A stretch of DNA of 61,050 nucleotides from IMG/VR virus record IMGVR_UViG_3300021141_000010, positions 1 to 61,050 of that record; one strand, given 5' to 3'. This DNA is from a virus. Both the position numbers and the translations under genes were made by a program. Shown here in pieces: positions 27,088 through 61,050 of this stretch (position 1 is its first letter; each line of letters starts with the position of its first letter). Below the pieces are notes generated by a model. It was not told the origin of the DNA and did not search any database. It worked only from the letters and a program-made list of their open reading frames with translations.

Positions 27088-27340
27088 TTTTGTCTGCGTA
27101 ATCTGTAAAAACTTGGTCTACCGTATTCCAGAAGTACCTAGCCCAGACGTACAATACATTGCCTGCCCCTACGGAGGGGCAGGCAATAAACCATGCACAC
27201 TGAAAGCCAGGAGAACCGATTGTGGACTATGCGGAAATTCAAAAGAAATTAGAGTCAGCCAAGACTCTGCGAACGAGGTTGGAGGGGCAGAAGGAGCAAC
27301 TACTCCGCAACCTCAAGGATCTCGGACACGAGACGATTGA
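27080..27340 (+). CDS. small zinc-finger-like protein in the SbcCD group
   Basis: 86 aa. Cys pairs in FVCVICKNL, IACPYGG/KPCTL and DCGLCGN suggest two zinc sites. The ATG overlaps the sbcD stop. The C-terminal 40 residues overlap the next gene and look unstructured. It may be an extra subunit of the complex. Confidence 0.6.
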   Translation: MADFVCVICKNLVYRIPEVPSPDVQYIACPYGGAGNKPCTLKARRTDCGLCGNSKEIRVSQDSANEVGGAEGATTPQPQGSRTRDD

Positions 27341-27470
27341 GTCAGCGCAAGCAGAAATCACGGAACTCGAACAGTACATCGAAACCAATGAACCAGCTTT
27401 CAACCAACAGTGTGACGAATTTTTTGCGGCTAACCAAGATGCAATCAACGCTCTCGGTGGCCTCAAGTAA
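27222..27470 (+). CDS. coiled-coil protein, putative Rad50 arm
   Basis: 82 aa from a GTG with AGGAG 8 nt upstream. It is one continuous heptad-rich helix pair (IQKKLESAKTLRTRLEGQKE, IESAQAEITELEQYI). Its place between SbcD and the C-terminal ATPase half suggests it forms part of the return coiled-coil arm as a separate chain. Confidence 0.65.
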   Translation: MDYAEIQKKLESAKTLRTRLEGQKEQLLRNLKDLGHETIESAQAEITELEQYIETNEPAFNQQCDEFFAANQDAINALGGLK

Positions 27471-28002
27471 GCATAGGGCTGCCGTCATGGCGGTCGAAAG
27501 CAGCAAGTCGTCTATCGACGACTTGCGAGAACGATACGAAGCCGCCTTGGCGGCCAAAGAGATTATCCAACAAGTCAGCATGGAGTGCCAGGAGGCTTGC
27601 CAGAAACGCATCGGGTACGTTGTTACCCGATGTTTGCAGGCGGTGTTCCCTGACCAAGGGCTTACGTTTCGGCTCGTATTCGAGCAGAAACGGGGCCAGA
27701 CAGAAGTGCGCGGCGTCCTCGTCGATGCGGAAGGTCACGAGCTTGACCCCCTCCAATCGTGCGGCGGCGGAATTTTAGACGTGGCGGCTTTCGGCTTGCG
27801 GCTCGCTTGCCTTATGCTACAACGTCCTCAACCCGCTCGGGTTCTGATTCTGGACGAACCGTTCCGGTTCGTCTCGTCGCACTACCGCAGCAACGTCCGC
27901 GCACTACTGTCTGAGCTTTCACAGGAGATGGGTGTCCAGATCATCATGGTCACTCACATTGAAGAATTCATGGACTTCGATAGCAGATTGGAGATTGCGT
28001 AA
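27439..28002 (+). CDS. SbcC/Rad50 C-terminal half (ABC signature + Walker B)
   Basis: 187 aa from the ATG at 27439; ATG 27487 is an alternative. A short helix leads to LDPLQSCGGGILDVAAFGLR (ABC signature region with SCGGG in place of LSGGE) and Walker B VLILDEPFRFVS, then the His-switch VTHIEEF. It should dimerise with the N-terminal half at 25079 to make a working ATPase head. A hairpin lies at about 27610. Confidence 0.85.
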   Translation: MQSTLSVASSKHRAAVMAVESSKSSIDDLRERYEAALAAKEIIQQVSMECQEACQKRIGYVVTRCLQAVFPDQGLTFRLVFEQKRGQTEVRGVLVDAEGHELDPLQSCGGGILDVAAFGLRLACLMLQRPQPARVLILDEPFRFVSSHYRSNVRALLSELSQEMGVQIIMVTHIEEFMDFDSRLEIA

Positions 28003-31668: not shown

Positions 31669-34600
31669 TTATGGGAACAACGGAGGTGATAAAGTCACCG
31701 ACGTTGTGGGTGCAATTGTGGTCGTCGTCGTGGTCGGCCCACACGGGAAGGATGCCTGGGCACACGTCTCATTTGCTACCCAATACCCGCTGGCCCGGTC
31801 GCACCAGGACTCAGTCTGGCCGCTGGCACAGAGCGAGTATTCAGTACCAAAACAACATCGCCCAAGCGGAACAGGCGTGGTGGTCGTCGTAGTGCCGCAC
31901 ACATCTGCCGGAGAGCAAGAAGCACCTTGAGTCCATCCCAGAACTTGATATTGGGGGACGCTAGGGAAGTTGTAAAAATCACATTCTGCTTGAGTAAGAC
32001 CTTCTGTACAAAAGATACCCCCCGACTCAACTGCTCTTAGGCAACACCTACCGGTCGGAGGCAATGTCGTTGTCGTGGTAGTAGTGAAAGATGGGCATGT
32101 AAACGAATCGCAGTTCTGGTTAGCATACCAGACACTAGCTAGCCGCAACGAACAGTCCGCCTGCGTCTCGGTGGCGCAGAAGGTGGAGCCGCCAGAAGGG
32201 TAGCAACATGCGCCGGTAGGTACAGGCGTAGTTGGACAATCCGCAGTTTCGCAAGTGCTTCCGGGGCCTTGGGGCGATCCATATCTGGCGATGCATTGTT
32301 GAGGGGTAAGCATCTCGCAAGCGGCATCGAGGAAGCAGCAAGCCTGAGGAGCGACTGTCGTGCCAGTCGTTGTGGACGTAGATGTCTGCGTGGTAGGAAG
32401 TACGGATCCGCAGGTGTACCTGCGGATCTCACAGTCGGACGCACTAAGAGTCGGCGGATATGCTGGACAGGGGCAAGTCGACGGGCATGGGTCGTCGATT
32501 TTAACCCAGCCGCCGATAAGATTGCCTCTGAATGTGCATTGCTTGTCGCAAGGCTGAGTTGTGCAACAAGCACACGGTTCGATAGACCTAAACTGACAGC
32601 CAGTCTCTACCAAGTCGCAAATACTCGCAGGCGGCGTAGCTGGTGGGTAGCAACCACAACAACACGGATTATCTTCTAGCACATTAGTACATCCCGGAGA
32701 GTACCCGCCGATGTTGGGCCAAGATCCGTGTGGCGGGCATTTACATCCAGAGACTCCGTTACGGACTGGGAAACACCCGTCGTTCATACCTACAGTTTTT
32801 TGCCATCTCAATGTAGATCCGTACCCGTCCTCATACACTGCGTACCACATGCAAGATCCTTCGCAAGACGTGCATAAATTGGACGGCGTTGTTCCTGGAC
32901 GAACGCAACTCCCAGAAACGATAGTCCCGCATGGCGGCGATGTGGATGGGTACGACAACACACAGTTGCATCCTGGTTGGCATGTGCTTACTGGCACATA
33001 TCCGCGACCTGTGAGGTACTGAGATGAGCAAGATCCCGAGCAGGGAGCAAGCGTAGTCGATGTGGTGCTTGAACCGCAGTTGCATTCCTGGTTGTACGTT
33101 GTGTCATAACACACAAACTGACCAGGAGCCCCAGTAGTTGTTGGGCATGTTATGCCCACCATACTCGCACCGCCTGGGCGACAGACGGTTCGCACACAAT
33201 CAGAGGCGGACACAGGGCAAAACGTAGGAGGCTCACATCCGCACGGGACAGGAGTAGTAGATGTTGTGGACGTTGTGGACGTTGTGGACGTTGTTGTGGT
33301 GTTTTGGTTGATCGGCAGGTAGTCGTTCAGCGGTGACGACTCACACGTCTCGCAGGGAGGCCCAGGCACGCATGGGGACTCAAATAGGTAAACACCTATC
33401 GGGGATTCTGTCACCCCGTTGACAAACACATCTTGATAGTATATGAACTTTGGCGGACTGGCTGACGGTCTAGTCCCAGCAGGGCAACTTTGGCATTGTA
33501 TCCAATTACCAGCGAACTTTTCCCCATCCTCAAACAATAAAGCCTCTGAGCCGTATCGCCCTCCCCAGTAGAACACTTGATCAGCATAGCCAAAAGCCTT
33601 AAAGCCTGCATAGCCCGTGCTGAATTCAGAGTCGTCGAGCGCGCATGGAGAGGCCACGCATGGGGTGTCGTGTATCATCACCCACGAGGTAGGCCCAGGA
33701 TCAAAAGCGGCAACGCTACCTACCTTTAGCAATGGTACTTGGCCTGTTGGGCAATCTTGGCAGATCGCCCAACCACCGACGCCGCCTTTCCATATGGCGG
33801 CTCTGTACTCGCCGGGGATCGCGGGGACTACGGAGGCTGCCAATGAGCAAGCCTCTTCTCCCGGAGCCGGGGTAGTTGTGGTCGTGCTAGTAGTGCTGGT
33901 CGTCGTGGAGACTACGAGACACTGGCTAAGGACTTCGCCTTCCTCTAGAAAACATGGATCTCCAACCCCGTAGCATGAGCAAGGCTCCGTGCATGGGAAG
34001 TTGTACAGATCGCTTACGACCACATAACGCAGTGATGGCTGCCACGATTGGGGCCAGCTTGTAGTTGTCGTGGACGTGCTGCCAGACGGGCTGCCAGTGG
34101 TCGTAGTGACGGGCATGCATCGAAGCCTACAAGGCGTGTACGAACACGGCGCGGGGGTTGTGCTTGTTGTGGTGGTGCTTGAGGTGGTCGTACTCGTTGT
34201 GGTCGTGGTGGTCGTGCTTGAGGTGGTCGTATTGGAACACCCGCCTTGCGGGGGTTTCCAAACCAAACCGCCTAACCCAAACCCAGCAGTGAATATGCAC
34301 TCACCTTGGCACACGGGTCTGGGCGATATGTCTGGGGGCTGTGTAGACGTAGTCGAGGAAGACGAGGCTACCTCCTGCGGTCGCTCATTTGTCCAATAAC
34401 CATTCTTATGCCTAAAGACTTGTACGAAGTCGGTAGTTGTTAAGGCATAATAGTTGTAGACCAGGACTTTCACTGGCAGATCAATGCCGTCCAGAACTGG
34501 GATCAGCTTCTTCTGGGCTTCATCTAATTTGAACAGGCAGCACACGGCTTCGCCTGGAAACACCTCACCGTCTTCTCGGGTTGCGGCAGGTAGTCCTGTC

Positions 34601-34761
34601 TCACATGGCGGTAAAGCCCAGTACGCATCCGGTGCGGTTTGGAAGTTTCTGTTAGTCGGAGGGAGCATCGACGGGGGTGGTGCGGATCGTACCGCCTCGA
34701 CTAACCCCTTGACGACCTTCAGACCTTCTTTAGTTAGCGTGTAGAATTTATTTTGAGTCAT
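31669..34761 (-). CDS. large Cys-rich tail protein with Thr-rich linkers
   Basis: 1030 aa, starting in an ATGA overlap. A compact N-terminal domain (about 130 residues, ending FRHKNGYWTNERPQ) is followed by many Cys-rich modules separated by (T/S)n tracts. Near the C-terminus at least four modules follow the same plan: QACCFLDAACEMLTPQQC, GACCYPSGGSTFCATETQ, GRCCLRAVESGGIFCTEG, GRCCFGTEYSLCASGQ. Each should form a disulfide-stabilised unit. By position (distal tail end) it is a fibre or receptor-binding candidate. The linkers favour a planctomycete-type host. Confidence 0.7.
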   Translation of the reverse strand: MTQNKFYTLTKEGLKVVKGLVEAVRSAPPPSMLPPTNRNFQTAPDAYWALPPCETGLPAATREDGEVFPGEAVCCLFKLDEAQKKLIPVLDGIDLPVKVLVYNYYALTTTDFVQVFRHKNGYWTNERPQEVASSSSTTSTQPPDISPRPVCQGECIFTAGFGLGGLVWKPPQGGCSNTTTSSTTTTTTTSTTTSSTTTTSTTPAPCSYTPCRLRCMPVTTTTGSPSGSTSTTTTSWPQSWQPSLRYVVVSDLYNFPCTEPCSCYGVGDPCFLEEGEVLSQCLVVSTTTSTTSTTTTTPAPGEEACSLAASVVPAIPGEYRAAIWKGGVGGWAICQDCPTGQVPLLKVGSVAAFDPGPTSWVMIHDTPCVASPCALDDSEFSTGYAGFKAFGYADQVFYWGGRYGSEALLFEDGEKFAGNWIQCQSCPAGTRPSASPPKFIYYQDVFVNGVTESPIGVYLFESPCVPGPPCETCESSPLNDYLPINQNTTTTSTTSTTSTTSTTPVPCGCEPPTFCPVSASDCVRTVCRPGGASMVGITCPTTTGAPGQFVCYDTTYNQECNCGSSTTSTTLAPCSGSCSSQYLTGRGYVPVSTCQPGCNCVLSYPSTSPPCGTIVSGSCVRPGTTPSNLCTSCEGSCMWYAVYEDGYGSTLRWQKTVGMNDGCFPVRNGVSGCKCPPHGSWPNIGGYSPGCTNVLEDNPCCCGCYPPATPPASICDLVETGCQFRSIEPCACCTTQPCDKQCTFRGNLIGGWVKIDDPCPSTCPCPAYPPTLSASDCEIRRYTCGSVLPTTQTSTSTTTGTTVAPQACCFLDAACEMLTPQQCIARYGSPQGPGSTCETADCPTTPVPTGACCYPSGGSTFCATETQADCSLRLASVWYANQNCDSFTCPSFTTTTTTTLPPTGRCCLRAVESGGIFCTEGLTQAECDFYNFPSVPQYQVLGWTQGASCSPADVCGTTTTTTPVPLGRCCFGTEYSLCASGQTESWCDRASGYWVANETCAQASFPCGPTTTTTTIAPTTSVTLSPPLFP

Positions 34762-35216
34762 AGGGGGAAGGCCGAGATATGCAAAATGGAGGTAGATCGT
34801 GTGGAAGACGCATACAGCTTCCCACTGAACTGTCCATACATCATCCGCTCTGGCCCTATTGTACCGACTAATCCCGATTCGTTGTAAATTTCAATTACGT
34901 TCATCTTCTGCTGGCTTTCCAGCAATTCATTTTTCTGTTGCAGTTGCGGGACTTTGTGTCCCAGAAGCAGTTCGTAAGCCTCGCAAGACTCTGGGAGAAT
35001 GATCTCCTTTTTCTCACCTGGGTTAATTTTGATATTTTGTTGCTGGGATGCGTATTTGGACGGAACTAATCGGTCGCACGCCCATCGAGCAACGGTCGTT
35101 TGCCCAGTCTCGAACTCAAGGTAATGGCCCTGGACAACCAGGGTAAACCTATCGTCGTTTATGGTTTTTGGAGTGCCTTGGGTGGTCAAAAATTGCTCTT
35201 CGTTTCTATGCGTCAT
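34758..35216 (-). CDS. virion-associated hypothetical protein
   Basis: 152 aa, ATGA-coupled to both neighbours. Mostly beta-predicted with a central Gln-rich stretch (QLQQKNELLESQQK). Position between the distal tail protein and the fibre suggests a tail-tip or adaptor role. Confidence 0.6.
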   Translation of the reverse strand: MTHRNEEQFLTTQGTPKTINDDRFTLVVQGHYLEFETGQTTVARWACDRLVPSKYASQQQNIKINPGEKKEIILPESCEAYELLLGHKVPQLQQKNELLESQQKMNVIEIYNESGLVGTIGPERMMYGQFSGKLYASSTRSTSILHISAFPL

Positions 35217-36124
35217 GGTATGAGTGTGGTTGGGATCCCGAGAAGTAGTAGATTGGCCTCTTTTGGAATTCTCAGCGTCTGGATGTAGACATCTTCTTCG
35301 TTATCCACAGCCTCCCCAGAGGAATTGAGGAAAACAACTTCCATGTTCTCTCCCTTGCTGTCCTTTGCAATTACGAAGTCCTCTGCCTTGGTTCCAAGTG
35401 TCCCTTCCTTTTTAATCTTCATCCCCATTGCTGGCACTTTTTTATCGAAAGTTTCCAGATTGCATTCAAAGGTGTATGTGACTTTGTAGTAGTAGAAGCA
35501 TGACCCATACAACACACGCTCCCATTTCGCATCCGTAAAGCGTACACACCTAGAAGGAAGACCCCAAAGGGGTGCGTCGTTGACTTTGTTTATGAGTAGC
35601 ACATAAGTGCTGAGCGGCAGGACGCCGGTGTTAAAGCCGATTGTGACCGAAGGGTAGCTGATCTTGTCTTCAACTTCGGGGCCGGTGATCGGCTCAAAGT
35701 TCGGGTGTCGGAGAGGCATGCCGTCCTTGTCCACCTTCATTTCGCGACTGACGTGAACAAAGTCACCAGAAAGAGTGAACGGCTCAAGGAGCGGGTTGTC
35801 GATGGGCGGGAACATGCATCTCGACATCGGCTTGGTGGTGTACTTCGTACTGACCATCCAATCCAACGTAGGCTCGCCTTCCTCGACATCTCGGTGTACC
35901 GAGATGGAGAGTTCAGGCGTGCGAAACGCCCACGGATCGTAGTCATTGTCGATAGCATATGCAGTGCCTAGCGGGGGCAGTTGCGTATTGACCGCCGCCA
36001 AAACCATCTCCGGCCCATCGAGATACGAATTGGTTCGGAATTGCCATATGACATCGTAGGTTCTATGACCTTCTTCATCACGAGCCATGCTCTGGTTTTT
36101 TAGTCCGACTAGGTATGCTGTCAT
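35213..36124 (-). CDS. distal-tail or baseplate-type structural protein
   Basis: 303 aa, directly downstream of the tape measure, the usual slot for a distal tail protein. It is beta-rich with motifs such as SVTIGFNTGVLPLSTYVLLI and YYYKVTYTFECNLETF. I do not recognise the family, so the role rests on position. Confidence 0.6.
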   Translation of the reverse strand: MTAYLVGLKNQSMARDEEGHRTYDVIWQFRTNSYLDGPEMVLAAVNTQLPPLGTAYAIDNDYDPWAFRTPELSISVHRDVEEGEPTLDWMVSTKYTTKPMSRCMFPPIDNPLLEPFTLSGDFVHVSREMKVDKDGMPLRHPNFEPITGPEVEDKISYPSVTIGFNTGVLPLSTYVLLINKVNDAPLWGLPSRCVRFTDAKWERVLYGSCFYYYKVTYTFECNLETFDKKVPAMGMKIKKEGTLGTKAEDFVIAKDSKGENMEVVFLNSSGEAVDNEEDVYIQTLRIPKEANLLLLGIPTTLIP

Positions 36125-36133
36125 AAAGATCTC

Positions 36134-39100
36134 CTAAAGGTCGAGTTCTGCGACTTCCATAGGTTTCTGCTGTGTGTTTTTCTCAATCCGCTGTAGGATT
36201 TGATTGGCTTTGTTCTGTGCTTGCAATTTCGGATCGGATGTCGCGGCCTTCATACCTCGCATTCTATCCATGTACTCAGCCATCCTCTTTGTGTAGTCGC
36301 CGCTGTGGACAGACATAGCATCCTGTACTTTGTAGTCGCTTCCTTTTGTGCCCGTTTTTGTGCCTTTGGCATCTGGTTGGATAGCAGCAAACATAGCCGC
36401 AGCATCCGTAGGTGCTTCGGGTATTGCCAACTCTGGGGGCTCAGGGGGCTTTTGAGCCTCGGGAACTTTGAGATTCAGATTCATTTCGGGGGATGAGAAC
36501 TCGACTCCTTCGAGCCCCGTTTTGATTTTGCCTGTCTCTTCGTTTATGATCGTCTTAGCGGCTTCAAAAAATCCGTCCTCGCGAGTCTTTGCAACGTCCC
36601 CCGAAAGGGTGTCCATAAAACTTGTGATCGCTTTGGTTCCTTTGCCCCATTCTGAAGGTGAGGTAATGAATTTCCATACTCGTTTACCGGCATCCAGAAT
36701 TCGCATGAACACGTCTTTCACGAAATCCATTGCGGCTGAGAAAGCATTTTTAATTGCTTTGGGCAAATAGTCTATTAACCATGTTCCGAAGGCAACGGTG
36801 AGTCGTAGCCCCATTCTCCACATGACTAGGATGTTTCCGGGGACAGCCATAAAGAACCCACCAAGGATTTTACCTAAATCCGAAAACATCGAACGCCAGT
36901 TCTCATAAACATACTTGGCAATGATGCCTGCGTTCTCTGCGAAGTTGTAAAAGAAACCATAGGCGGCTTGTGCAAACCACTGCATAGTTTCCCAAATCTT
37001 GGTTATCGCCCCAGAAATTCCGCCTGCACCCTGCAATGCGTTCATCACAGCAAAAATACCAGCTACGACCAATCCAATGCCGCCGACTATTAACGGGATC
37101 GGCCCTAAAAAAGACATCCAAGCGAATATTGAAACCAATCGAAATCCATTCATCATCCGCACGAGCAAACCTATAGCACCGCCAGTCCTAACCGCACCCA
37201 TTAGTCCAGTAGCGGCATTTTGGAGCATCGCAAATGTGGACAGTGCGACTACGACTGCCAGTTGTCTGAAGTATTCGAGAAGGCCCACAGAACGGATGGT
37301 CTGGTAAGATAATGCCAAAAATCTCCCGACAGCAGAGTTTCGCAACATTGCTATCGTGTTGATCGCAAGAGCCCTTGCGTTGCCCAATATGCTAGTGGTG
37401 AAGTAGACCATGCCTCTATAGGCAGCCGCAATCGCCCTATCCATCATGAGCGTGACTGTATTGTATATCTGAGTCATAACAGTGACCATACGCAACGCAC
37501 CGGCGAATACGACACCAGCATACTGGGCTACATATGCCATTGATTGAAACAATACAATGACAGGTGTCAAGACTACTCGCAGTCCGTACAACACAGAAAC
37601 AGCACTATGCAACCACCAACGAACACTGGCCACAGCCAATCCGAGCATGTGGAAGGCGGCTATAAAGGCTACGACTTTGACAACAAAATCAACTATTCTT
37701 GCGGCGGCCTCTCGATTATTTTTTATCCAATCTTGGAGCATTTTGACATATACAATAGCAGTTTTTAGGGCATCTTTAAGCCTAGCATCCAGCACATCCA
37801 TGACAGACAGCTTCATCTCCAGAAACATCTCAGATAATCGACTAGTTAGACCGCCCACCTCTTTCGACATCCTGTTGAGAAGATCAGCGAAGTAGCCACC
37901 TTTAGAAGTCTCCACTTCTAGAGCCTTCGCGAAATGCTCAGATGTTACCAGACCTTGCTCTTTGGCTAGTGTGATTTCTTTGATCCGCTGTTTGAGTTCA
38001 TCGTCAGTGAACCCAGGCTTCAGCGATGCTCTAGCCATCGTAACCAGCGGATTGAACCCATGCTCGGCTAGCTGATTTAAATCTTGTTGCATCAATTTGC
38101 CTTTGGTCATAATCTGAGAGAAGACCAAAGACAGTCGGCTTAGCCGCTCCTGACTACCACCGGCAACGACCCCTAGTCTTTTAATAGCATCGGTAGCCAT
38201 ATCGACAGCAACGCCGCGACCCATCATATTCTTAGTCTCCTCAGCGATGCCTGCCATGCTATATGGAGTCTGTTGAGCGTATTGCATCAAGTCCCCCATA
38301 ACAGCGTTAGCCTTCGCAGCATCTCGCGTAAACACTTCGATACCTGCACTCGCCGCCTTGAAGTTGGCGTATACGTCAAGCATGCCCTTGCCGGACTGCA
38401 CGAGGCTACTCAACGCATTGGCATGCATATAGATATCAGCACGCGCGCCCATACCTCCCATGCCGCCACCGCCTACAGCGTTTCCGCCTCCCGCAGCGTT
38501 GCCGCCACCGCCACCGCCACCGCCACCGCCACCGCCACCGCCACCGCCGCCTACAGCGTTTCCGAATTGGTTTTGCATGTTATTGAGCATGTTGTTCACA
38601 TGCCTAGTCATCTGTCTCGTGAATCTTGTGACCATCGGTTGGATGTTCACCGTATTAGTAGCTACTTGAAAGCTGTTTTGCATCATTTGTAAAACAGCTT
38701 GTAGCGTAGACTGCAAGATGACTCTAAGTCTAGCTCGCACCATGGGCACATACATGACGCGAGTAAGCATGGCGAGAGCGGCTGTGCTTATAGTATTCTG
38801 TGTGACCTGTAGGATGGTGTGCAGCACTACCTGTACGGCTTGTCTTATGGTGGCGTTTATTCGGCCGGAGCCCGCAGGCCGGATATTGTGGGCATTGACT
38901 ACAAGTAACCGAATGTAGCGAAGCAGAGAGTGTTCGACCACATGGATAGCTTGACGAATCGTAGTGTTCACACGACCCGCTCCCGATGACCGGATATTGT
39001 GCGCGTTCACCACCATCAGCCGAATGTATCGAAGCACGCTGTGCAGCACGACATCGACAGCTTGTCGAATAGTAGAATTAACCCTAGCGGAGCCGGAGGG

Positions 39101-39673
39101 TCGTATAGAATTAGTCTTTGCCACCAGACCGTTTGTCAAATTGATCAGGACATCCGTAATGGCGGCTAGGGACGCCTTGATCTGCTTGTTGATCTTAGTC
39201 GTAGAGACATTTATTTTGTTAGATGTAGCAACCAAACCTTGGATTGCGCGGAGCAGATCCCGTTCGAGCAGATCAACGGCGTTCTGCATAGCCATCTTCA
39301 CAGCATTCGCTGCTTTACTCACGCTTGGGGTTGCAAATTTCTTTGCTGCATCATTTACCGCATCGACCAAGGATTTTTCTATGGCTTTTGTGGCATTCTT
39401 TATCGAATCCGTAACCCCTTTATGTTTTATTTGGATCGTGTGGATCTGACCGACCAGAGACTGTGCAGCTTGTTTAAGGCCCCGTTCGATCAAATCCACA
39501 GAGTTCTTGACCGCCATCTTCACAGCATTCGCAGACGCTTTCTGCGAAGCTACCTTATCGATAGAGTCTTGGAGACGCTTGGCCTTATCTTCAACATCCT
39601 TGATCGCCTTATCAAATTTCTTGCTATCGGCGACGATTCGGACGCGAATTGGAGGTAGTTCTCGATCTGCCAT
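36134..39673 (-). CDS. tape measure protein
   Basis: 1179 aa. The central part (AASAGIEVFTRDAAKAN, MQYAQQTPYSMAGIAEETKN, KGKLMQQDLNQLAEHGFNP) is the phage tape-measure domain (TIGR02675-like). The N-terminal 330 residues contain repeated helical units, including two 37-residue repeats beginning TIRQAVDVVLHS / TIRQAIHVVEHS and ending NAHNIR-type. A tract of about 18 Gly follows (38500-38555). At about 1.5 A per residue the tail would be roughly 175 nm. Several hydrophobic segments lie near residues 660-860. Confidence 0.92.
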   Translation of the reverse strand: MADRELPPIRVRIVADSKKFDKAIKDVEDKAKRLQDSIDKVASQKASANAVKMAVKNSVDLIERGLKQAAQSLVGQIHTIQIKHKGVTDSIKNATKAIEKSLVDAVNDAAKKFATPSVSKAANAVKMAMQNAVDLLERDLLRAIQGLVATSNKINVSTTKINKQIKASLAAITDVLINLTNGLVAKTNSIRPSGSARVNSTIRQAVDVVLHSVLRYIRLMVVNAHNIRSSGAGRVNTTIRQAIHVVEHSLLRYIRLLVVNAHNIRPAGSGRINATIRQAVQVVLHTILQVTQNTISTAALAMLTRVMYVPMVRARLRVILQSTLQAVLQMMQNSFQVATNTVNIQPMVTRFTRQMTRHVNNMLNNMQNQFGNAVGGGGGGGGGGGGGGGGGNAAGGGNAVGGGGMGGMGARADIYMHANALSSLVQSGKGMLDVYANFKAASAGIEVFTRDAAKANAVMGDLMQYAQQTPYSMAGIAEETKNMMGRGVAVDMATDAIKRLGVVAGGSQERLSRLSLVFSQIMTKGKLMQQDLNQLAEHGFNPLVTMARASLKPGFTDDELKQRIKEITLAKEQGLVTSEHFAKALEVETSKGGYFADLLNRMSKEVGGLTSRLSEMFLEMKLSVMDVLDARLKDALKTAIVYVKMLQDWIKNNREAAARIVDFVVKVVAFIAAFHMLGLAVASVRWWLHSAVSVLYGLRVVLTPVIVLFQSMAYVAQYAGVVFAGALRMVTVMTQIYNTVTLMMDRAIAAAYRGMVYFTTSILGNARALAINTIAMLRNSAVGRFLALSYQTIRSVGLLEYFRQLAVVVALSTFAMLQNAATGLMGAVRTGGAIGLLVRMMNGFRLVSIFAWMSFLGPIPLIVGGIGLVVAGIFAVMNALQGAGGISGAITKIWETMQWFAQAAYGFFYNFAENAGIIAKYVYENWRSMFSDLGKILGGFFMAVPGNILVMWRMGLRLTVAFGTWLIDYLPKAIKNAFSAAMDFVKDVFMRILDAGKRVWKFITSPSEWGKGTKAITSFMDTLSGDVAKTREDGFFEAAKTIINEETGKIKTGLEGVEFSSPEMNLNLKVPEAQKPPEPPELAIPEAPTDAAAMFAAIQPDAKGTKTGTKGSDYKVQDAMSVHSGDYTKRMAEYMDRMRGMKAATSDPKLQAQNKANQILQRIEKNTQQKPMEVAELDL
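38850..39110 (-). repeat. tandem repeats in the tape measure gene
   Basis: Two full and a partial copy of a unit of about 111 bp (37 residues; TIRQA[VI]...LRYIRL[ML]VVNAHNIR). Copies differ by several substitutions, so this is an old duplication that lengthened the tail. Confidence 0.7.
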
Positions 39674-42442: not shown

Positions 42443-44563
42443 TCACCCCACGATACTTCCGAGTGCGACCGAATCTCCGGCGTTGGCCGGAACCAGAATG
42501 TTGTACTTGCGGAGACTTCCCGTTCGGTAAACGATGTAGGTAGCCCCCTTAACCAAGTTGTTGAATTGAATGACCCCTTGGTTGTCGGCGGCGGCCGTCC
42601 GAGCGGCATCTTCCATGACGATGCCCGTCGATCCTGTAGGTGGTGACGATGCCTGGATCGTCACCTGCGCACCCGCCTGAGCGACTCCGTTCAGGTCGAA
42701 CACAGTCCAGTATCCGGTTGTCCGTGGAGCCACGCTCGGCGTGACTCCACCGGTGCTAGTCAGCGTGTACGTCTGCGAGACGTTCCCGCTGACCACTAGC
42801 GAAACCGGAGTGAAGCTGAACCCTGCGGCGGTGATCGCGACGGTAAACGTCGCGTCATCGAGACTGAAAGTAGTCACACCGCTGGCGTTGGTAACGCCAG
42901 CATAGGTTTCCCCTGCCCGGTAAACGCGAACGGTGGCGGCTTCGACCGGATTGGCCGAGGCGTCTCGAACCGTGATCGTTACGATCCTCGCGCCCGACCC
43001 TTGGCCGGTCGCTCCGGTGATCCAAGCAGCATCGCCGCGATCTCGGATCGCTTCGAGCGAATCTGTCGTCTCGTTGTAGCCTGCCCCCGCTGTGGTCAAG
43101 TTGATTTCGGCTCGGGTGGTGCTATCTGCCGTTTTGCCTGCGATGGCTCCTAGCCATCGCGACATATAGGTGATGCCCGAGAACAGCGTTGCTGGGATGC
43201 GGGTCACTAGGGCAGTCACGTTGGCCGCCACGGCGGCCAACGCTGTGCTGGTGGCTAGGCCCGACTGGATTGCGGAAATCGAGTGAACGTGGACGGTTGG
43301 TATAACAATGAATTGGTCGCCCACAGTCGGAGCGGACGTGAACGCCTCTTCGACTGTAAACACCCCATTGCTGTTTACATACCCAGTGATTGGGCTGTTC
43401 TGCTCGTTCAGAGATGCCGCACTGATGAAGAGCAGAACGGCGTGCTTGAAAGCACCTGATGGGTAGTTGACATTGGAGGAGAAGGTAGTTGTCGTTGGAG
43501 TCGTCGCTGAGGTGACGGTTCCTTCGACAACGGTGTTGGACTTTTTGATGATGCTGATGTATTTAGCGAGACTATGTGCGACCCCATCGTGATCGTCAAC
43601 ATTTTCTTCTAGCACCGCATCGGCAATAGCCGATGCCGTAGGCACATCTGAAACTGCCGCTGGGTTTGCGGGCAGATTGTCAGTCTTGGCTTTGATTGCG
43701 GCTACCTCTGTGTCTACATAGGATGCCAACGTACCCAGAAGAGTCGTGATGTTTGCGAAGCTCGCGGCAATGTCGCTGGCATCTGCCGGGTCTACCGGCA
43801 GATTGTCAGTCTTGGCCTTGATTGCAGCTACTTCGGTATCTATGTACCCAGCTATCGTGGCCAGGGCTGCATTTACGCTCGCGAAGCTCGCGGCAATGTC
43901 GCTGGCATCTGCCGGGTCTACCGGCAGATTGTCAGTCTTCGCCTTGATTGCAGCTACCTCTGTGTCGATGTAGCTTGAGATGGTAGCAAGTGTGTTATTG
44001 ACTGTTACGAAGCTGGCAGCAATATCACTGGCATCTGCCGGATCTACCGGCAGATTGTCAGTCTTGGCTTTGATTGCAGCTACCTCTGTGTCAACATAAG
44101 AGGCGAGCGTATCGACGCTCGCCTGTGATGCTCGCGAGGCAACAGTCGTTTCGTCTGCTACGGAGGCTGGGAACGTCACCGCCGCCGCTGCGTTGGCGTC
44201 TTGTCCGTTGATTTGCACTACGTTGGCTTTTCGATTGCGATTCTCAATCGAGAAGGCTTTGAGCTTGATGCGAGTCAAATCTTTGCCGTCGACTGTTCCC
44301 GCTGTGAAGACTACATCGTAGTCTTCACCTACGGCATAGAACGTAGCATCCGCCGATGTGTCAATTGTGACCATGTGAAGACCGGCCTTGCCGTCATAGT
44401 CCGCAGAGACGCTGATGCCGGACGTACTTTCCGTGACGCTGTTCTTGTACACAGCGAAAGTCATCGCTACCGCTGGTGTGGTGGGTACGAGGGCTTGGCT
44501 CAAGGTGTTAAACTTGATCCTAATCACCGACCCTGCTAGGAAATCACCAATGTATTCGCTCAT
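42443..44563 (-). CDS. fibre or appendage protein with four DTEVAAIKAKTDNLP repeats
   Basis: 706 aa. Residues 1-115 look like a small beta domain. Residues 155-320 are four 42-residue repeats (126-bp period) reading [YS]xDTEVAAIKAKTDNLPxDP, a coiled-coil/trimerisation module common in phage fibres. Near residue 520 an Ig-like, carboxypeptidase-regulatory-like domain follows (VTITVRDASANPVEAATVRV). It lies between capsid-side membrane genes and the neck genes, so it may be a head or neck fibre. Hairpins 44101-44124 and 44304-44328 are in the coding sequence. Confidence 0.72.
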   Translation of the reverse strand: MSEYIGDFLAGSVIRIKFNTLSQALVPTTPAVAMTFAVYKNSVTESTSGISVSADYDGKAGLHMVTIDTSADATFYAVGEDYDVVFTAGTVDGKDLTRIKLKAFSIENRNRKANVVQINGQDANAAAAVTFPASVADETTVASRASQASVDTLASYVDTEVAAIKAKTDNLPVDPADASDIAASFVTVNNTLATISSYIDTEVAAIKAKTDNLPVDPADASDIAASFASVNAALATIAGYIDTEVAAIKAKTDNLPVDPADASDIAASFANITTLLGTLASYVDTEVAAIKAKTDNLPANPAAVSDVPTASAIADAVLEENVDDHDGVAHSLAKYISIIKKSNTVVEGTVTSATTPTTTTFSSNVNYPSGAFKHAVLLFISAASLNEQNSPITGYVNSNGVFTVEEAFTSAPTVGDQFIVIPTVHVHSISAIQSGLATSTALAAVAANVTALVTRIPATLFSGITYMSRWLGAIAGKTADSTTRAEINLTTAGAGYNETTDSLEAIRDRGDAAWITGATGQGSGARIVTITVRDASANPVEAATVRVYRAGETYAGVTNASGVTTFSLDDATFTVAITAAGFSFTPVSLVVSGNVSQTYTLTSTGGVTPSVAPRTTGYWTVFDLNGVAQAGAQVTIQASSPPTGSTGIVMEDAARTAAADNQGVIQFNNLVKGATYIVYRTGSLRKYNILVPANAGDSVALGSIVG
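43671..44100 (-). repeat. 126-bp tandem repeats in the fibre gene
   Basis: The segment GGCAGATTGTCAGTCTT recurs at 43671, 43797, 43923 and 44049, a period of exactly 126 bp (42 codons). The near identity of the copies suggests recent duplication and possible length variation. Confidence 0.9.
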
Positions 44564-46589: not shown

Positions 46590-47473
46590 AATTTGCTCCC
46601 CACAAAGACCCAGAAGTCGTGATACTTCGTGCAAACAAATGCGTCTTGCATTGTGAACAATCCGAATCCTCCTTCACCCCATCCTTGACTGTTGGTTGGC
46701 CCGTACATCGGGTCTTGGCTAGGCCCCCAAGAGTTCTCAATGTCCGGGTGAACCAGATCGTTGCCGCCAACCCACTTACCAGAGTGGAACAAGGTGGCGT
46801 GGTTGCCAATGCTTCCGCCTTGGACGGCGTAGCCGTTCCTCAGTCGCATCGAGTTGCCGCCAACATGCCAAGCGTGGATGACTTGATGATCTCTCGCGAG
46901 CGCGCTCGCGAGAGCGATCTTGAAGGTGTTGTAGTTGTCGACCGGTAGCTTGTACGCCTCGAAAGTGGTGTAGCTTGCAGCGGCGTCTCTCGCCACTTCC
47001 ATCCACTTCGCTGGCAACTGGCTTTTGAGATAGATGTTGTCGGGGATTGTGTATTTGTCCTGACCTTTGCTCAAAACACGGGGAGCAATCCCCTGTTTTG
47101 AGAAAGCCATGCCGTCCTGTAGCAGAGATCCCTGATCTCTGCCCCGGTTGATGTGCATGTAGAGGTAGCAATCACTCAACACAACGTGAACAAGCCCATC
47201 CAAGTCCCGACCGTTGTGGAACGCATTAACGGTGGCCGATGCGTTGCACTTGCCAAGATTCCCCTGGTTCAACACCCACTTGAATCGGCGTTGTCGCATC
47301 TGCTTGTAGACATCACCCTTGAGGGACTTCTCAATGTCTTTCGGCTCAAGGTAGAAGTTCTCCCCGTACACTGGCATATCAGCCACGAGCGCACGCTCGG
47401 CGGGTGTCGGAGGGATGCAACCTACGGAAACCGTAGTCCCGTCTGGGAGTTTGAAGAATTCGGTTTCGCTCAT
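46586..47473 (-). CDS. papain-like (C1-type) cysteine protease
   Basis: 295 aa. The papain triad can be placed: Gln and Cys in LNQGNLGKCNASATVN, His in GNHATLFHSGKW and Asn in DIENSWGPSQD, followed by GWGEGGFGLF, the usual ending of this fold. No signal peptide is seen. It lies in the late block between capsid-side membrane genes and the thioredoxin-like gene. It may act in virion maturation, host takeover or wall degradation. A 24-bp perfect palindrome (46891-46914) lies in the coding sequence. Confidence 0.78.
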   Translation of the reverse strand: MSETEFFKLPDGTTVSVGCIPPTPAERALVADMPVYGENFYLEPKDIEKSLKGDVYKQMRQRRFKWVLNQGNLGKCNASATVNAFHNGRDLDGLVHVVLSDCYLYMHINRGRDQGSLLQDGMAFSKQGIAPRVLSKGQDKYTIPDNIYLKSQLPAKWMEVARDAAASYTTFEAYKLPVDNYNTFKIALASALARDHQVIHAWHVGGNSMRLRNGYAVQGGSIGNHATLFHSGKWVGGNDLVHPDIENSWGPSQDPMYGPTNSQGWGEGGFGLFTMQDAFVCTKYHDFWVFVGSKL

Positions 47474-56486: not shown

Positions 56487-56840
56487 ATGCTACATCCTAG
56501 TATTTTGTGTACTGTCTGCCAGTATTACCACACAAAGCTCCAGCTTGTTCGGAGCTTTTTGCAGATGGTTCCCGAGGATACTCGGGAACCTATGACCAGT
56601 CCGCAGTACAAATACTCGTATGGGGTGGCGTTTGACCAGCCCTCGATGAGCTTTGAACTGGTCGGATATAGGGACTGCATTGGCAGAAAGTGGGATTATC
56701 AGTATGTTGAGGGCGGTGTCGTGCTGTGTATGCAAGGCAGTTCGGAGTCTATGAAGGCTCCGAACCTCTCAGATTTGGTGGTTTTTTACTCGGAAACCGA
56801 GTTTTCCGAGTGGTTAGGAAAGATTTCAGATGGCAGATAA
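56487..56840 (+). CDS. hypothetical protein
   Basis: 117 aa. Cys in the start (LCTVCQYYH) and a beta-rich middle (SYGVAFDQPSMSFELVGYRD). Overlaps the next gene by 11 nt. Unknown function. Confidence 0.6.
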   Translation: MLHPSILCTVCQYYHTKLQLVRSFLQMVPEDTREPMTSPQYKYSYGVAFDQPSMSFELVGYRDCIGRKWDYQYVEGGVVLCMQGSSESMKAPNLSDLVVFYSETEFSEWLGKISDGR

Positions 56841-58386
56841 ACCTAGTTTGACAACAACGGAGGAGAAGCTCGCTAGTGTCGTTTCGGCACAATCGAAGAT
56901 GATCTCGATGCTTATTACCAATCGAAGACTTTTTGCAGCGTGCCTGATTGCTGACGTATCGGCATCGAAATCCGTGAGGGAGCGTGCTGAGAAACTCCTT
57001 AGCTCGACTAACGATGATTTGATCCCTGAGGTCGATGCCTTCGTTCAAGGCTTTTGTGACGAACTACCGCACATCTTCCGAGCGTCTGACGACTCTTTTG
57101 AGGACGAAGAGGACGAAGAGGACGAAGAGGACGAAGAGGACGAAGAGGACGAAGAGGACGAAGAGGACGAAGAGGACGAAGAGGACGAGCCAGCACCGCC
57201 TTTCGACTCAGCGTCTCAAGCCTACCGAGACGAAGTTTCGTACATCGTCTCGAAGATGCCCTCGGACGAGCATCTTCGGACTAAGGGTGCTGATCGCATG
57301 TTCAAGATCCTTAGTTGGCTTCCACGGGTCGTGGACTTCACCCACCGCACTGTCTCGATTGACGCGCGACTGCGAGTCCTTGTGCCTACGCACAAGGACG
57401 AGAAAGGCGCGGACGTATACCAGAGCTTGGTGTTCAATACGAGTTTGTTCGATCCGAAGACAAAATCGCCTGTCATTGAGTATCCGATTGGTGGGGATCT
57501 GCTGTCCTCGGACGGCCCCATCTACCTAGCCAATTCTTGGAATCCAAAACTGTCGCCGGATATGCCAGTCGAAGTCGAAGTCACCCTCAACATCGGGTTC
57601 GATTTCTTTGATGTCCCAGATGCCCCGGTCGCCGAGGCTCCAGAGTTTCATAGCGAGTACGATGAAGTAGCTCCCAAGCCTGCTTGGGAGCCAAAGGTTG
57701 GTGATTGGGTAACAATCACCAAGCCTGAGGACACAAAGAAAGAGCCTGGATGGGTTGGCGAGATGGACAAATATCTCGGCAAGGCTCGGCAGATTGCCTC
57801 AGTCAGGAGCCAGACTGGGTTTTTCCACCTGTGCGTCCCAGCAGACCACGATGACTGTCGACAAGGCCGATCACTCTGGACTTTCCACAAGGATTGGATG
57901 ACTCCAGCCGAAGCACCCGCTGAGGCCAAAGCCGAGGATATCAAGTCTCCGCTAGAACAGACGGTCGGCGAAAAGATCACTATCGAAACAGATGGTTGGG
58001 TATTCAAGGGGTTTGCCACGAAGGTTGCTGCATCGTCCTGGCAATCCGGCATAACCACTGCGGTGGATTTCACCTTCTCGCCAACCTCCTGCGAACCGAA
58101 GAAGAAGCAGGAGCCAGAGGCTCCTGCTGAGGCTCCCAAGCCCGGCAAGCGGCAGATCACCCATGCCGACCTCGGCAAGCGAGTCGTCGTAACCCACCGA
58201 AAGGATGGGTACGAGTCCAGTTACTCACGCTATCTAACCAGCATCACAGTCCGGCCCTCCCGTCCAGATCGTGTCGAGTACGGCGTGAAACGCTCTCGCG
58301 AGTTCGATGACTTCCATTCCGACATCCTTGTCGTCTACCCAGACGACCCCAACTCGGAATACCAAGTCGAACTCGCCAACGGGTAG
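56830..58386 (+). CDS. acidic-repeat protein with KOW-like domains
   Basis: 518 aa. A helical N-terminal domain (residues 1-90) is followed by a tract of DEE repeats (residues 92-121), a middle beta region (LRVLVPTHKDEKGADVYQSL) and small barrel-like modules (VGDWVTITKPEDTKKEPGWV; MDKYLGKARQIASVRSQTGF) seen in several phage proteins, separated by Pro/Ala/Glu linkers. The acidic tract could mimic DNA or bind metal. Nothing specific is known. Confidence 0.65.
   Translation: MADKPSLTTTEEKLASVVSAQSKMISMLITNRRLFAACLIADVSASKSVRERAEKLLSSTNDDLIPEVDAFVQGFCDELPHIFRASDDSFEDEEDEEDEEDEEDEEDEEDEEDEEDEEDEPAPPFDSASQAYRDEVSYIVSKMPSDEHLRTKGADRMFKILSWLPRVVDFTHRTVSIDARLRVLVPTHKDEKGADVYQSLVFNTSLFDPKTKSPVIEYPIGGDLLSSDGPIYLANSWNPKLSPDMPVEVEVTLNIGFDFFDVPDAPVAEAPEFHSEYDEVAPKPAWEPKVGDWVTITKPEDTKKEPGWVGEMDKYLGKARQIASVRSQTGFFHLCVPADHDDCRQGRSLWTFHKDWMTPAEAPAEAKAEDIKSPLEQTVGEKITIETDGWVFKGFATKVAASSWQSGITTAVDFTFSPTSCEPKKKQEPEAPAEAPKPGKRQITHADLGKRVVVTHRKDGYESSYSRYLTSITVRPSRPDRVEYGVKRSREFDDFHSDILVVYPDDPNSEYQVELANG
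57103..57183 (+). repeat. nine copies of a 9-bp tandem repeat
   Basis: GACGAAGAG is repeated nine times without a change, encoding (DEE)9. Perfect copies imply recent expansion by slippage and possible copy-number variation. Confidence 0.95.
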
Positions 58387-58416
58387 CCCAGTCTAACCAA
58401 CCCAAAAACCTACCTA

Positions 58417-58448
58417 AACCAGCAGGATTAAAACCCTGCTGGTTTTTT
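58417..58448 (+). terminator. Rho-independent terminator
   Basis: 10-bp stem AACCAGCAGG / CCTGCTGGTT, 8-nt loop, then T4 (six T in all). It ends the right-arm operon after the acidic-repeat gene. Confidence 0.88.
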
Positions 58449-58523: not shown

Positions 58524-58757
58524 ATGGTCGACCTCCAAACTCTCCTCCTAGTGGTAGCTATCCTCGCCCTCTGGGCACACACAACCCATCTAGCCCGCCG
58601 TCTTCAAGACGTAGAAGCCATCCTAGACGATCACGACGATGAACTAGAGTATATGTGGGATTACCAGAATGAACGCTGGCAGGTCACCGCAGAGCAGTTC
58701 CAAAACATCGATGCTATCTTCTCCCAGATGTTCGGCCCAGATCACGAGCCCGAGTAG
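58524..58757 (+). CDS. small membrane-anchored coiled-coil protein
   Basis: 77 aa behind CAAGGA. An N-terminal membrane segment (LLLVVAILALWAHTTHLA, residues 7-24) precedes an acidic coiled coil (LDDHDDELEYMWDYQNERW). It has its own promoter and terminator, so it may be expressed separately. Role unknown. Confidence 0.7.
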   Translation: MVDLQTLLLVVAILALWAHTTHLARRLQDVEAILDDHDDELEYMWDYQNERWQVTAEQFQNIDAIFSQMFGPDHEPE

Positions 58758-58780
58758 CAATACTACGAACCCCATATCGA

Positions 58781-58804
58781 AGCCCCGGCAAGCCGGGGCT
58801 TTTT
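58781..58804 (+). terminator. Rho-independent terminator
   Basis: 9-bp stem AGCCCCGGC / GCCGGGGCT with an AA loop and T4, after the 58524 gene. Confidence 0.85.
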
Positions 58805-58903
58805 CGTTTGTGTCTCACATTCCTAGCTTTGTGATACACAAGCTGCGGTGCTAGCCATCGGCTGGCAGCTAGTGACTATTGGGCGATGGTCGCTGGCGAC
58901 TAA

Positions 58904-59043
58904 GCGATCCGCAGAGCGGATCGCGGGTGGTGGGGCTATGTCCGGGTGTGTCCAGACTTTCCAGATGTCCAGAGCTTGGGGCTGAGGGTTAAGCGATCCG
59001 CAGAGCGGATCGCGGGGGTTAAGCGATCCGCAGAGCGGATCGC
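58904..59043. repeat. three copies of a GCGATCCGC hairpin
   Basis: The 21-nt hairpin GCGATCCGC-AGA-GCGGATCGC occurs at 58904-58924, 58993-59013 and 59023-59043. The last two are part of an exact 30-bp tandem repeat (58991-59020 and 59021-59050). Identical copies point to a binding site. Confidence 0.95.
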
Positions 59044-59113
59044 GGGGGTGGGATCCTCGATTCCTGAAAATTTTAAAATTTCTAAAAATTATATGTGTGG
59101 CTGGGCGGCCTGG

Positions 59114-59135
59114 GGGGGTGTACTAGTACACCCCC
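59114..59135. repeat. 22-bp perfect palindrome
   Basis: A palindrome with a TACTAGTA centre and G5/C5 ends (59114-59135), lying between a G-run and the C-run at 59159-59167. Likely a protein-binding or extrusion site. Confidence 0.9.
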
Positions 59136-59174
59136 ACACCCGTACACTCGACTGACCTCCCCCCCCCATCGCAA

Positions 59175-59253
59175 TTGCAATTAAATTGCAATTTACTTGC
59201 AATCGGTTTGCTATTGCAAATCGATTGCAAGTAGGCATGGCATGCCATGCCTA
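59175..59253. repeat. TTGCAA iterons followed by a GGCATGCC palindrome
   Basis: Five TTGCAA copies start at 59175, 59186, 59197, 59214 and 59225 (spacing 11, 11, 17, 11 bp, close to one helix turn). They are followed by a perfect 22-bp palindrome (59232-59253) and an overlapping inverted repeat at 59251-59269. The phasing suggests a row of bound proteins on one face of DNA. Confidence 0.85.
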
Positions 59254-59345
59254 GGCATGGCATGCCTAGTATAAGTTTTCCTATATAGCAAACGGCGTAC
59301 CAATTAGAAATACTGAATATCGTGTTTTGCGAACTCCGTGTGAGA

Positions 59346-59380
59346 ATAACCGCCCTAAACCATAGGTTTAGGGCGGTTAT
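59346..59380. repeat. 16-bp perfect hairpin
   Basis: Arms of 16 bp (ATAACCGCCCTAAACC) with an ATA loop. Strong enough to act as a terminator or a cruciform; no T-run on either side. Smaller relatives in layout (3-nt loop) are at 59403-59423 (9 bp, TTT) and 59538-59566 (13 bp, TTT). Confidence 0.9.
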
Positions 59381-59621
59381 AGCCCCATAAACCTAGCATA
59401 AGTAAAACCGATTTTCGGTTTTAAGGGCTCTAGCATCGCGATACAGAGGGGCATTTCTTGGGGGGTGTCAATTGTCGCACTACGAAATACGATGCGTCAA
59501 AACGCAAATTTGGAATTATCATGAATTCTAATGCTAGAACTATTTTGGCATTTTGCCAAAATAGTTGGGGAATTGGCACGGGATTTGTTCGCGAGCGTGC
59601 GCGGTAATTAAAAGGTATACC

Positions 59622-59693
59622 GTCGACGGCTCAGCGGCTCGACTCTGTCGAGCCGTCGACGGCTCAGCGGCTCGACTCTGTCGAGCCGTCGAC
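59622..59693. repeat. 33-bp tandem repeat with nested GTCGAC palindromes
   Basis: Two exact 33-bp units plus a final GTCGAC (at 59622, 59655, 59688). Each unit contains the hairpin GGCTCGAC-TCT-GTCGAGCC. The GTCGAC core also recurs at the right end (60932-61050) and in the hairpin at 50-72. Confidence 0.92.
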
Positions 59694-59884
59694 AGTACGA
59701 ATAGCCCTGATATAAAATCCTCTAATTCTAACATCTCGGGATATAACTAAAAACGATATAGCTAAAAATGGTAAAAATAGTAAATAGGGGTTTACTCGAT
59801 TGCCGATATAGCTACAATCAATACGGGCTCGATTCCCAACGGTGGGAATCGACAATCCAGGAAACCATTGTAAGGGGTTTAAAC

Positions 59885-60922
59885 ATGTCATTAATGTACG
59901 ATAGTCTGTTCAACGGATCTAGGAAACCATTGTCAAATGAGCTTCAAACGGAATACGATGCGATGACGCAAAAGCTAGAAGCTCAGATTGCAAAGATGTC
60001 GGATAAAGAGAAAGAAATCGAATGGGCAAGAATAAAAGCTGAGCCCCAAGCAACCCAAGCAACCCAAGCAACCCAAGCAACCCAAGCAACCCAAGCAACC
60101 GCAAAAATGATAGTTGAGAAATATACCGCCGATGAAATCTTGAATGCCTCGCGAAAAGAGATAGCAAACGCGCGTAAGGTAGCCAAATCATTTGGTTTTA
60201 ACTACCTATTATCGGTCGACAGCGACCCGAAAACGGCAAAGAGCAATAAGGCGAATAAAGGATTTTATACGGCAATCCAGTATTTCGCACCCGGTAAGAA
60301 ATCCGGTTTTCAAGTATGTTCATCCGCAGGCAGTTGTCTAAATCCGTGCTTGGATACTGCAGGCAATCCGATATACCAACCCGCAAAGGATAAAGCACGG
60401 TCGGCCCGTACTCGATTCTATTTCATGGCACGAAAATCGTACTTGATCCTACTGGTAGCAGAAATCCGCTCATTTGTCGCCAAATGCGAAAAGCTCGGGT
60501 TGAAACCTGCTATCCGATTGAATGGCACGTCCGATATTCTATGGGAATCATATGGTTGGCTGTTTGAGGAATTCTCTGAAGTTGTTTTTTATGACTATAC
60601 CAAGCATACCAAGCGTATGAGATTGGATTGGAAGTTACCCGGTAACTATTACCTTACATTCTCACGACAATTAGAAAATCACGACGACACCCTACGGATT
60701 GCCCATAGCGGGCGCAACGTAGCGGTGGTTTTTCGTAAGAAAAACCTTCCCACCTCTTGGAATGGATTACCGGTCATTAATGGTGACGAAACAGATCTGC
60801 GTTTTTTGGATCCATTTGGCGGATATGTCGTCGGATTGTCCGCCAAGGGTAAAGCTAAGAAGGATACCAGCGGATTTGTAATGGAAAATGAAATCTCTTG
60901 GCCATCATCCGCAGTTGTATAA
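59885..60922 (+). CDS. GP88-family protein with (QAT)6 tract
   Basis: 345 aa from the ATG at 59885 (AAGGGG upstream); the longer frame from 59768 lacks an SD. The C-terminal 230 residues match the GP88 family of phage and plasmid proteins by eye: CSSAGSCLNPCLDTAGNPIY, GLKPAIRLNGTSDILWESYG, FYDYTKHTKR, NVAVVFRKKN, LRFLDPFGGYVVGLSAKG. Function unknown; its place beside a possible origin suggests replication. Codon use looks more AT-rich than its neighbours, hinting at transfer. Confidence 0.75.
   Translation: MSLMYDSLFNGSRKPLSNELQTEYDAMTQKLEAQIAKMSDKEKEIEWARIKAEPQATQATQATQATQATQATAKMIVEKYTADEILNASRKEIANARKVAKSFGFNYLLSVDSDPKTAKSNKANKGFYTAIQYFAPGKKSGFQVCSSAGSCLNPCLDTAGNPIYQPAKDKARSARTRFYFMARKSYLILLVAEIRSFVAKCEKLGLKPAIRLNGTSDILWESYGWLFEEFSEVVFYDYTKHTKRMRLDWKLPGNYYLTFSRQLENHDDTLRIAHSGRNVAVVFRKKNLPTSWNGLPVINGDETDLRFLDPFGGYVVGLSAKGKAKKDTSGFVMENEISWPSSAVV
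60047..60100 (+). repeat. six copies of a 9-bp tandem repeat
   Basis: CAAGCAACC is repeated six times without a change, encoding (QAT)6. Like the (DEE)9 tract at 57103, it is a slippage-prone coding minisatellite. Confidence 0.95.
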
Positions 60923-60931
60923 ATCGGGATC

Positions 60932-60954
60932 GACGGTCGACGCTGTCGACCGTC
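60932..60954. repeat. GTCGAC hairpin, copy 1
   Basis: 10-bp arms GACGGTCGAC / GTCGACCGTC with a GCT loop, followed by CGCAG. Part of a unit (about 60928-60959) that starts again at 61027. Confidence 0.9.
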
Positions 60955-60961
60955 CGCAGGG

Positions 60962-60994
60962 AAAAACGGTCGACGCTGTCGACCGTTTTTTTTT
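60962..60994 (+). terminator. strong Rho-independent terminator (GTCGAC hairpin, copy 2)
   Basis: 13-bp arms AAAAACGGTCGAC / GTCGACCGTTTTT with the same GCT loop and nine T in a row (60986-60994). It ends the GP88-like gene. On the other strand the A-run is also compatible with termination. Confidence 0.9.
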
Positions 60995-61026
60995 GTCGAC
61001 CGTCCGCAGTGCCTTGGATCCCTCGG

Positions 61027-61050
61027 GATCGACGGTCGACGCTGTCGACC
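61027..61050. repeat. GTCGAC hairpin, copy 3 (cut by the window end)
   Basis: GATCGACGGTCGAC-GCT-GTCGACC repeats the 60928 unit and is interrupted by the end of the window. The assembly may have stopped here because of this repeat. Confidence 0.85.

Follow-up and report, generated by a model that had tools for sequence, protein, structure and literature searches.

What is a 1.1-kb stretch without genes, crowded with palindromes and repeats, doing in a compact phage genome? The stretch occupies positions 58758–59884 of a linear 61,050-base virus contig from an uncultured tailed phage (the window, meaning the whole stretch of DNA analysed), and the earlier note had read it as a candidate origin or partition site that probably binds specific proteins. 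The structural genes recognised in the window encode a terminase, a portal, a tape-measure protein and a head protein, and other genes a primase, a DnaB-like helicase, a family A polymerase (13873–15237), a clamp loader, a sliding clamp, a single-strand binding protein, a 5′–3′ exonuclease, a RecA-like protein and, at 25079–27087, an SbcC/SbcD-like pair. Across 25079–28002 lie the SbcC-like ATPase, the SbcD-like phosphoesterase and an additional AAA fragment, a possible palindrome nuclease within a palindrome-rich phage. No close named phage relative was found (best identity 28% for the polymerase and 31% for the portal), a host search by genome scan with the portal profile returned no relative, and Rfam and tRNA searches gave no matches. 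Scans with the portal, terminase and DnaB proteins yielded 23 family contigs (G001–G023), all metagenomic, in which certain samples recur. The features of the region and its flanks are:

58524–58757, plus strand: conserved small gene preceding the region, an open reading frame with 72–79% nucleotide identity to G002, G003, G005 and G007
58779–58802, plus strand: intrinsic terminator hairpin AAGCCCCGGC-AA-GCCGGGGCTTTTT, kept in relatives, with a loop-side pair changed in clade A
58904–58924: perfect hairpin, copy 1, GCGATCCGC-AGA-GCGGATCGC
58993–59013: perfect hairpin, copy 2, GCGATCCGC-AGA-GCGGATCGC
59023–59043: perfect hairpin, copy 3, GCGATCCGC-AGA-GCGGATCGC, its position kept in four relatives
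59064–59111: conserved AT-rich core ending in GCTGGGCGGCC, from an alignment of five family members
59114–59135: 22-bp perfect palindrome GGGGGTGTACTAGTACACCCCC, a G/C-rich hairpin with a different sequence in every relative
59159–59167: C9 run, conserved in the family
59174–59233: TTGCAA, repeated five times, mainly at 11-bp spacing
59239–59266: 28-bp perfect palindrome
59346–59380: hairpin with a 16-bp stem and 3-nt loop
59538–59566: hairpin with a 13-bp stem and 3-nt loop
59620–59693: 33-bp tandem repeat, 2.2 copies at 100%, with a 9-bp stem hairpin per copy
59829–59852: hairpin with a 10-bp stem, ahead of the GP88 gene
59885–60922, plus strand: gene for a GP88-family protein (PF17338, E 2.5e-37)
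60932–61050: GGTCGACGCTGTCGACC hairpins, with copies at 60935, 60968 and 61034; the contig ends among them

As an inventory, the earlier note was largely accurate. The five TTGCAA repeats begin at 59175, 59186, 59197, 59214 and 59225 (spacings 11, 11, 17 and 11; five in 56 bp, with 31 in the whole window), and the three identical hairpins, the 16-bp hairpin and the 33-bp tandem repeats are all present. There is likewise no plausible gene from 58757 to the GP88 open reading frame, and the neighbour does belong to the GP88 family; only the claim of two 22-bp palindromes needs amending, one being as described and the other longer, at a perfect 28 bp. The GP88 frame has a mechanical start at 59768, and an ATG with AAGGGG ahead of it lies at 59885. 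No GP88 relatives appeared in the viral-contig scan, nor was the gene found in the family contigs, which do not extend to it, and comparison of the protein with solved structures gave no credible match; over 120 bases the gene's DNA resembles that of Pelagibacter phages (71%), and it contains an (CCCAAGCAA)6 repeat. No other 1.1 kb of the window is as dense in hairpins as this region, which has 13 (stem of at least 8 bp) against a window mean of 2.8. The signature of an intrinsic terminator, a G/C-rich stem-loop with a run of T behind it where a gene ends, is clear only at 58779–58802 and 58416–58445, and not in the hairpin set as a whole.

Four relatives (G002, G003, G005 and G007) reach the region, and a little further along all of them terminate, either within a hairpin array or where one begins. 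They share one order of elements: terminator, GCGAYCCGC hairpin, AT-rich core, G/C-rich hairpin, C9 run and more hairpins. The hairpin preceding the core is GCGATCCGC in the window and G002 and GCGACCCGC in G003, G005 and G007, where a Watson–Crick double change (T-A to C-G) has left the second arm matching, and its loop is GAA in all four relatives. When all viral contigs were searched for the AT-rich core, only these four matched. The sequence and copy number of the hairpins vary among the relatives, as do the palindromes, and the TTGCAA repeats are absent from the homologous place in all four. Conservation of the repeats in relatives was a check that the earlier note had itself named, and on this point the evidence goes against it; an iteron-type origin, which calls for conserved direct repeats, was rejected on the same ground. 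The proposal of a specific functional site thus survives as a non-coding locus conserved in four relatives, but not in its TTGCAA iterons, palindromes or hairpin sequences.

A replication origin or partition site, at which iterons and palindromes would bind specific proteins, draws some support from 1.1 kb without genes in a compact genome, from the core kept in four relatives and from the spacing of TTGCAA at about a helical turn. We nevertheless regard this putative role as doubtful, given that neither the TTGCAA repeats nor the hairpin sequences are conserved, that no clear turn in GC skew marks the region, that the recognised replication genes lie far away at 9.7–27 kb, and that the same hairpins are found all over the genome, as described below. 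None of the proteins tested looked like a partition-gene product. The locus may nonetheless well be a functional site, and it may be an origin or packaging site. Elsewhere in the window, a 30-bp perfect palindrome with TTGCAA at its centre (1611–1640) lies in non-coding DNA between divergent genes (~1.2–1.4 kb and 2.2 kb), and is a second candidate regulatory or origin site.

The whole window contains 116 perfect hairpins (stem at least 9 bp, loop at most 8 nt) compared to 2.4 in dinucleotide shuffles. Ninety of the 116 fall fully within genes, the density being 1.75 per kb in coding sequence versus 2.72 per kb outside it, and the coding sequences tested hold 70 hairpins versus 2.0 after synonymous-codon shuffling (35-fold). 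All 23 related contigs carry 15–49 hairpins per 10 kb, compared to 0–3.6 per 10 kb in six named phages (Lambda, PaV-LD, Hardycor1, A-4L, MAR10 and Ma-LMM01) and 13 distant terminase relatives; the window's lineage has half the hairpin density of its relatives. The earlier note had contrasted the identical copies in the region with one-off hairpins in genes, a contrast that dissolves in view of the similar density of perfect hairpins throughout genes in the window and the 23 related contigs. Because hairpins fill the whole genome, genes included, repeated hairpins do not set the 1.1-kb region apart, and its identical hairpin copies are what tandem duplication yields.

Stems measure 8–16 bp and loops mostly 2–4 nt, and the stem sequences are almost all unique except for local tandem copies. 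Among 3-nt loops GAA/TTC has a large share, and the closing pair tends to be C-G, a DNA-like pattern. In these two enrichments the family resembles both d(GCGAAGC), an unusually stable DNA mini-hairpin, and the promoters of the N4 virion RNA polymerase, which are phage DNA hairpins with 3-nt loops at a few sequence-specific sites. Unlike the N4 promoters, the family has hundreds of unique hairpin sequences, and no N4-type virion RNA polymerase was seen among the proteins tested. Two long structural genes at 31669–39673, the tape measure included, are nearly hairpin-free (0.3 per kb); recent import of such hairpin-poor genes was considered and set aside, as the corresponding tape-measure stretch of G005 looks hairpin-poor too. 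Longer repeats also occur: an (GAGGACGAA)10 repeat at 57100–57188 lies inside the gene at 56830–58386, and G001 terminates in it; the gene at 42443–44563 holds a 126-bp tandem repeat (3.4 copies, 43671–44092); and in the left extension of a relative (G018, L098 1201–1650), GCCAACTTGTCC units are repeated in a pentapeptide-repeat-like gene.

Could such a density of hairpins be an artefact of sequencing or assembly? The contigs are metagenomic and have ends within hairpin arrays, but identical hairpins sit at matching positions within open reading frames of contigs recovered from many samples, and the window is 99.96% identical over 46,977 bases to an independent contig, G009; we give an artefact almost no credence. 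G009 ends precisely at window base 1, and this common left end may reflect an assembly break that both contigs share, a rearrangement or a physical terminus. Some relatives reach ~8 kb further left than the window's start, so the window is a fragment. The filling of these genomes with hairpins also accounts for the breakpoint shared by contigs of the family. Compared with G001, the window is 99.85% identical over 41.5 kb; most of the differences fall in one 150-bp patch (47111–47264) that resembles other family members, suggesting recent recombination, and the 61 differences were discarded as a record of recent mutation, being mostly within that patch and hence uninformative.

Had mobile palindromic elements of one family (REP-, RPE- or SDR-like) spread through the genome, they would also have left many small dyad elements, some of them tandemly repeated, as seen here. 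However, nearly all of the hairpins are unique, with no shared consensus or target-site pattern, and when the structural genes of seven sequences are aligned, the 69 hairpin sites, which range from common to all to present in one, differ almost always by substitutions and rarely by insertion or deletion of a hairpin. Mobile elements are accordingly a very improbable source.

Hairpins are gained and lost between related genomes, and the substitutions indicate how stems evolve in the meantime. Family-wide, the rate of change in stems is some third of that in flanks, fourfold-degenerate sites included, and loops change roughly as fast as flanks. A strong pairwise constraint at fourfold sites (12.6% versus 45.3%) was set aside as partly an ascertainment effect, the hairpins being perfect in one partner; because the pairwise test is biased, the constraint was re-tested with conditioned, matched, terminal-branch and third-sequence designs. 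On terminal branches, with hairpins taken from an ancestor reconstructed by parsimony, change per site in two clades was 0.0056 and 0.0060 for stems, 0.011 and 0.017 for loops, and 0.015 and 0.017 for flanks (stem versus flank, p 1e-13 and 1e-17). The window's own branch showed no stem constraint in this test, but hairpins born on its sister branch confound that result. In the third-sequence design, hairpins are defined in a third sequence and neither of the compared sequences is selected; the stem/flank ratio was 0.19–0.64 within clades and 0.13–0.88 across clades in tests that share sequences and are not independent, with loops near the flank level; 0.13–0.64 covers the within-clade cases and most of the cross-clade ones. 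At fourfold sites in one such example, none of 142 stem sites had changed, compared to 144 of 1664 others. Two cross-clade tests in the structural block gave weak or absent constraint, and a stricter matched control over longer branches gave weaker, mostly non-significant effects. Stem constraint is therefore evident on short time scales and incomplete on long ones.

The direction of stem changes bears on whether DNA or messenger RNA is the constrained molecule. Single stem changes, read in the mRNA sense, comprise G-U, A-C and transversion outcomes at 30:30:41, and every class is reduced to 0.26–0.36 of the flank expectation (0.30 for G-U and 0.26 for A-C). Since G-U outcomes are as rare as A-C outcomes, the constraint is attributed to DNA and not to messenger folding; it is strand-symmetric, as expected of DNA hairpins or cruciforms. 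Selection for folded messenger RNA, whether for stability, nuclease protection or translation control, would tolerate G-U pairs, and hairpins with one mismatch are not enriched in G-U either (18 G-U versus 29 A-C). Bacterial mRNAs commonly have stable local structure, according to literature cited in PMC4060949. In this family almost no hairpins lie between about –20 and +20 of a start codon, and they are common further downstream. Such a gap is expected if they fold in mRNA, where they are probably harmful near start codons; but avoidance of harm would empty start codons anyway, whether or not folded messengers are selected for. Messenger folding is accordingly a decidedly unlikely cause of the stem constraint.

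The leading alternative is that the hairpins are a mutational by-product without function, made perfect in one step, and restored when broken, by template switching at near-palindromes as the phage replicates. Template-switch (quasipalindrome) mutation is known to create and perfect short-loop hairpins (PMC8794818, PMC7202029), and it has been proposed for the palindromes of nematomorph mitochondria (PMC6649704). In the phage family, the excess over expectation is alike at zero, one and two mismatches, which fits hairpins born perfect and then decaying near-neutrally. Several recent gains altered more than one base of a single arm, as template switching would do; in one of them CATTGGC became CAAAGGC opposite GCCTTTG. 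Recent gains involving two changes fall 7 in one arm versus 2 in both. In one-mismatch pairs, restoring changes amount to 1.40% versus 1.04% in controls, while the surrounding stems evolve slowly. Other polarised gains, however, alter both arms, and pairwise differences between hairpin and non-hairpin homologues have no overall one-sidedness. Unbiased arm-to-arm correction predicts compensated double changes about as numerous as reversions, but only 5 were seen compared to ~106 expected; template switching does not account on its own for stems that evolve slowly yet yield so few compensated doubles. The by-product reading is possible rather than probable, and a repair process biased towards reversion may also keep stems. 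Because compensated doubles fall far below the unbiased-repair expectation, selection is favoured: these sequence patterns lead us, with moderate confidence, to prefer template-switch-assisted birth followed by selective removal of stem-breaking mutations.

The reading that we favour, at a probability of about 0.55, is that the hundreds of short perfect inverted repeats of this lineage (stems of 8–13 bp, loops mostly 2–4 nt), genic and intergenic, are kept self-complementary as DNA, the 1.1-kb region being the densest non-coding part of this genome-wide set. The repeats would fold as DNA hairpins or cruciforms in single-stranded or supercoiled phage DNA during replication or recombination, in which the phage's own SbcCD-like proteins may take part. 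New hairpins would arise in part through polymerase template switching, and most stem-breaking mutations would be removed, with selection on DNA structure a likelier agent than arm-to-arm conversion. Several observations weigh against this reading: the halved hairpin density and absent stem constraint in the window's own lineage, the two weak cross-clade tests, the shrinkage of much of the signal under the stricter matched control, and the like excess at zero, one and two mismatches. Without coding constraint, the 1.1-kb region would accumulate hairpins and duplicate them tandemly around one conserved core, which could double as an origin or packaging site.

The nearest parallel to the phage hairpins is the coding palindromes of nematomorph mitochondria, where numerous perfect inverted repeats lie in conserved protein-coding genes and turn over between species (PMC6649704). 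As in Nematomorpha, the phage repeats occur in conserved coding sequence far above chance, and are gained and lost between related genomes. The nematomorph repeats are at least 15 bp long, with a mean of 43 bp and a maximum of 142 bp, in a 15-kb organelle genome (PMC6649704), whereas the phage stems of 8–16 bp with 2–4-nt loops are shorter and sit in the genome of a tailed phage; the two sets of repeats share no common descent. The nematomorph palindromes have no accepted function, and the authors leave selection versus templated conversion undecided (PMC6649704), whereas for the phage family the sequence tests suggest constraint at the level of DNA. An excess of small inverted repeats and closely spaced palindromes also occurs in prokaryotes (Ladoukakis and Eyre-Walker 2008, as cited in PMC4060949). 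The prokaryote excess is milder, statistical and a property of whole genomes, whereas that of the phage family is tens- to over a hundred-fold and readable by eye, with stems maintained. In the open-licence papers searched, we found no description of a comparable hairpin-filled phage or virus.

Genes usually lack palindromes, which tend to be unstable. This family fills its genes with palindromes, preserves them unbroken as DNA and still encodes well-conserved proteins. A bolder proposal, to which we would give clearly less than even odds, is that a lineage of double-stranded DNA phages is under genome-wide selection for a perfect DNA hairpin every 100–500 bp, genes included; this would amount to a structural code superimposed on the protein-coding one, which some phage or host process would read at the DNA level. 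In genomes so rich in hairpins, repeats should not be called an origin without a genome-wide control. The phage family also offers a small, comparatively tractable system for the question raised by the nematomorph palindromes, namely polymerase errors versus selection on DNA structure.
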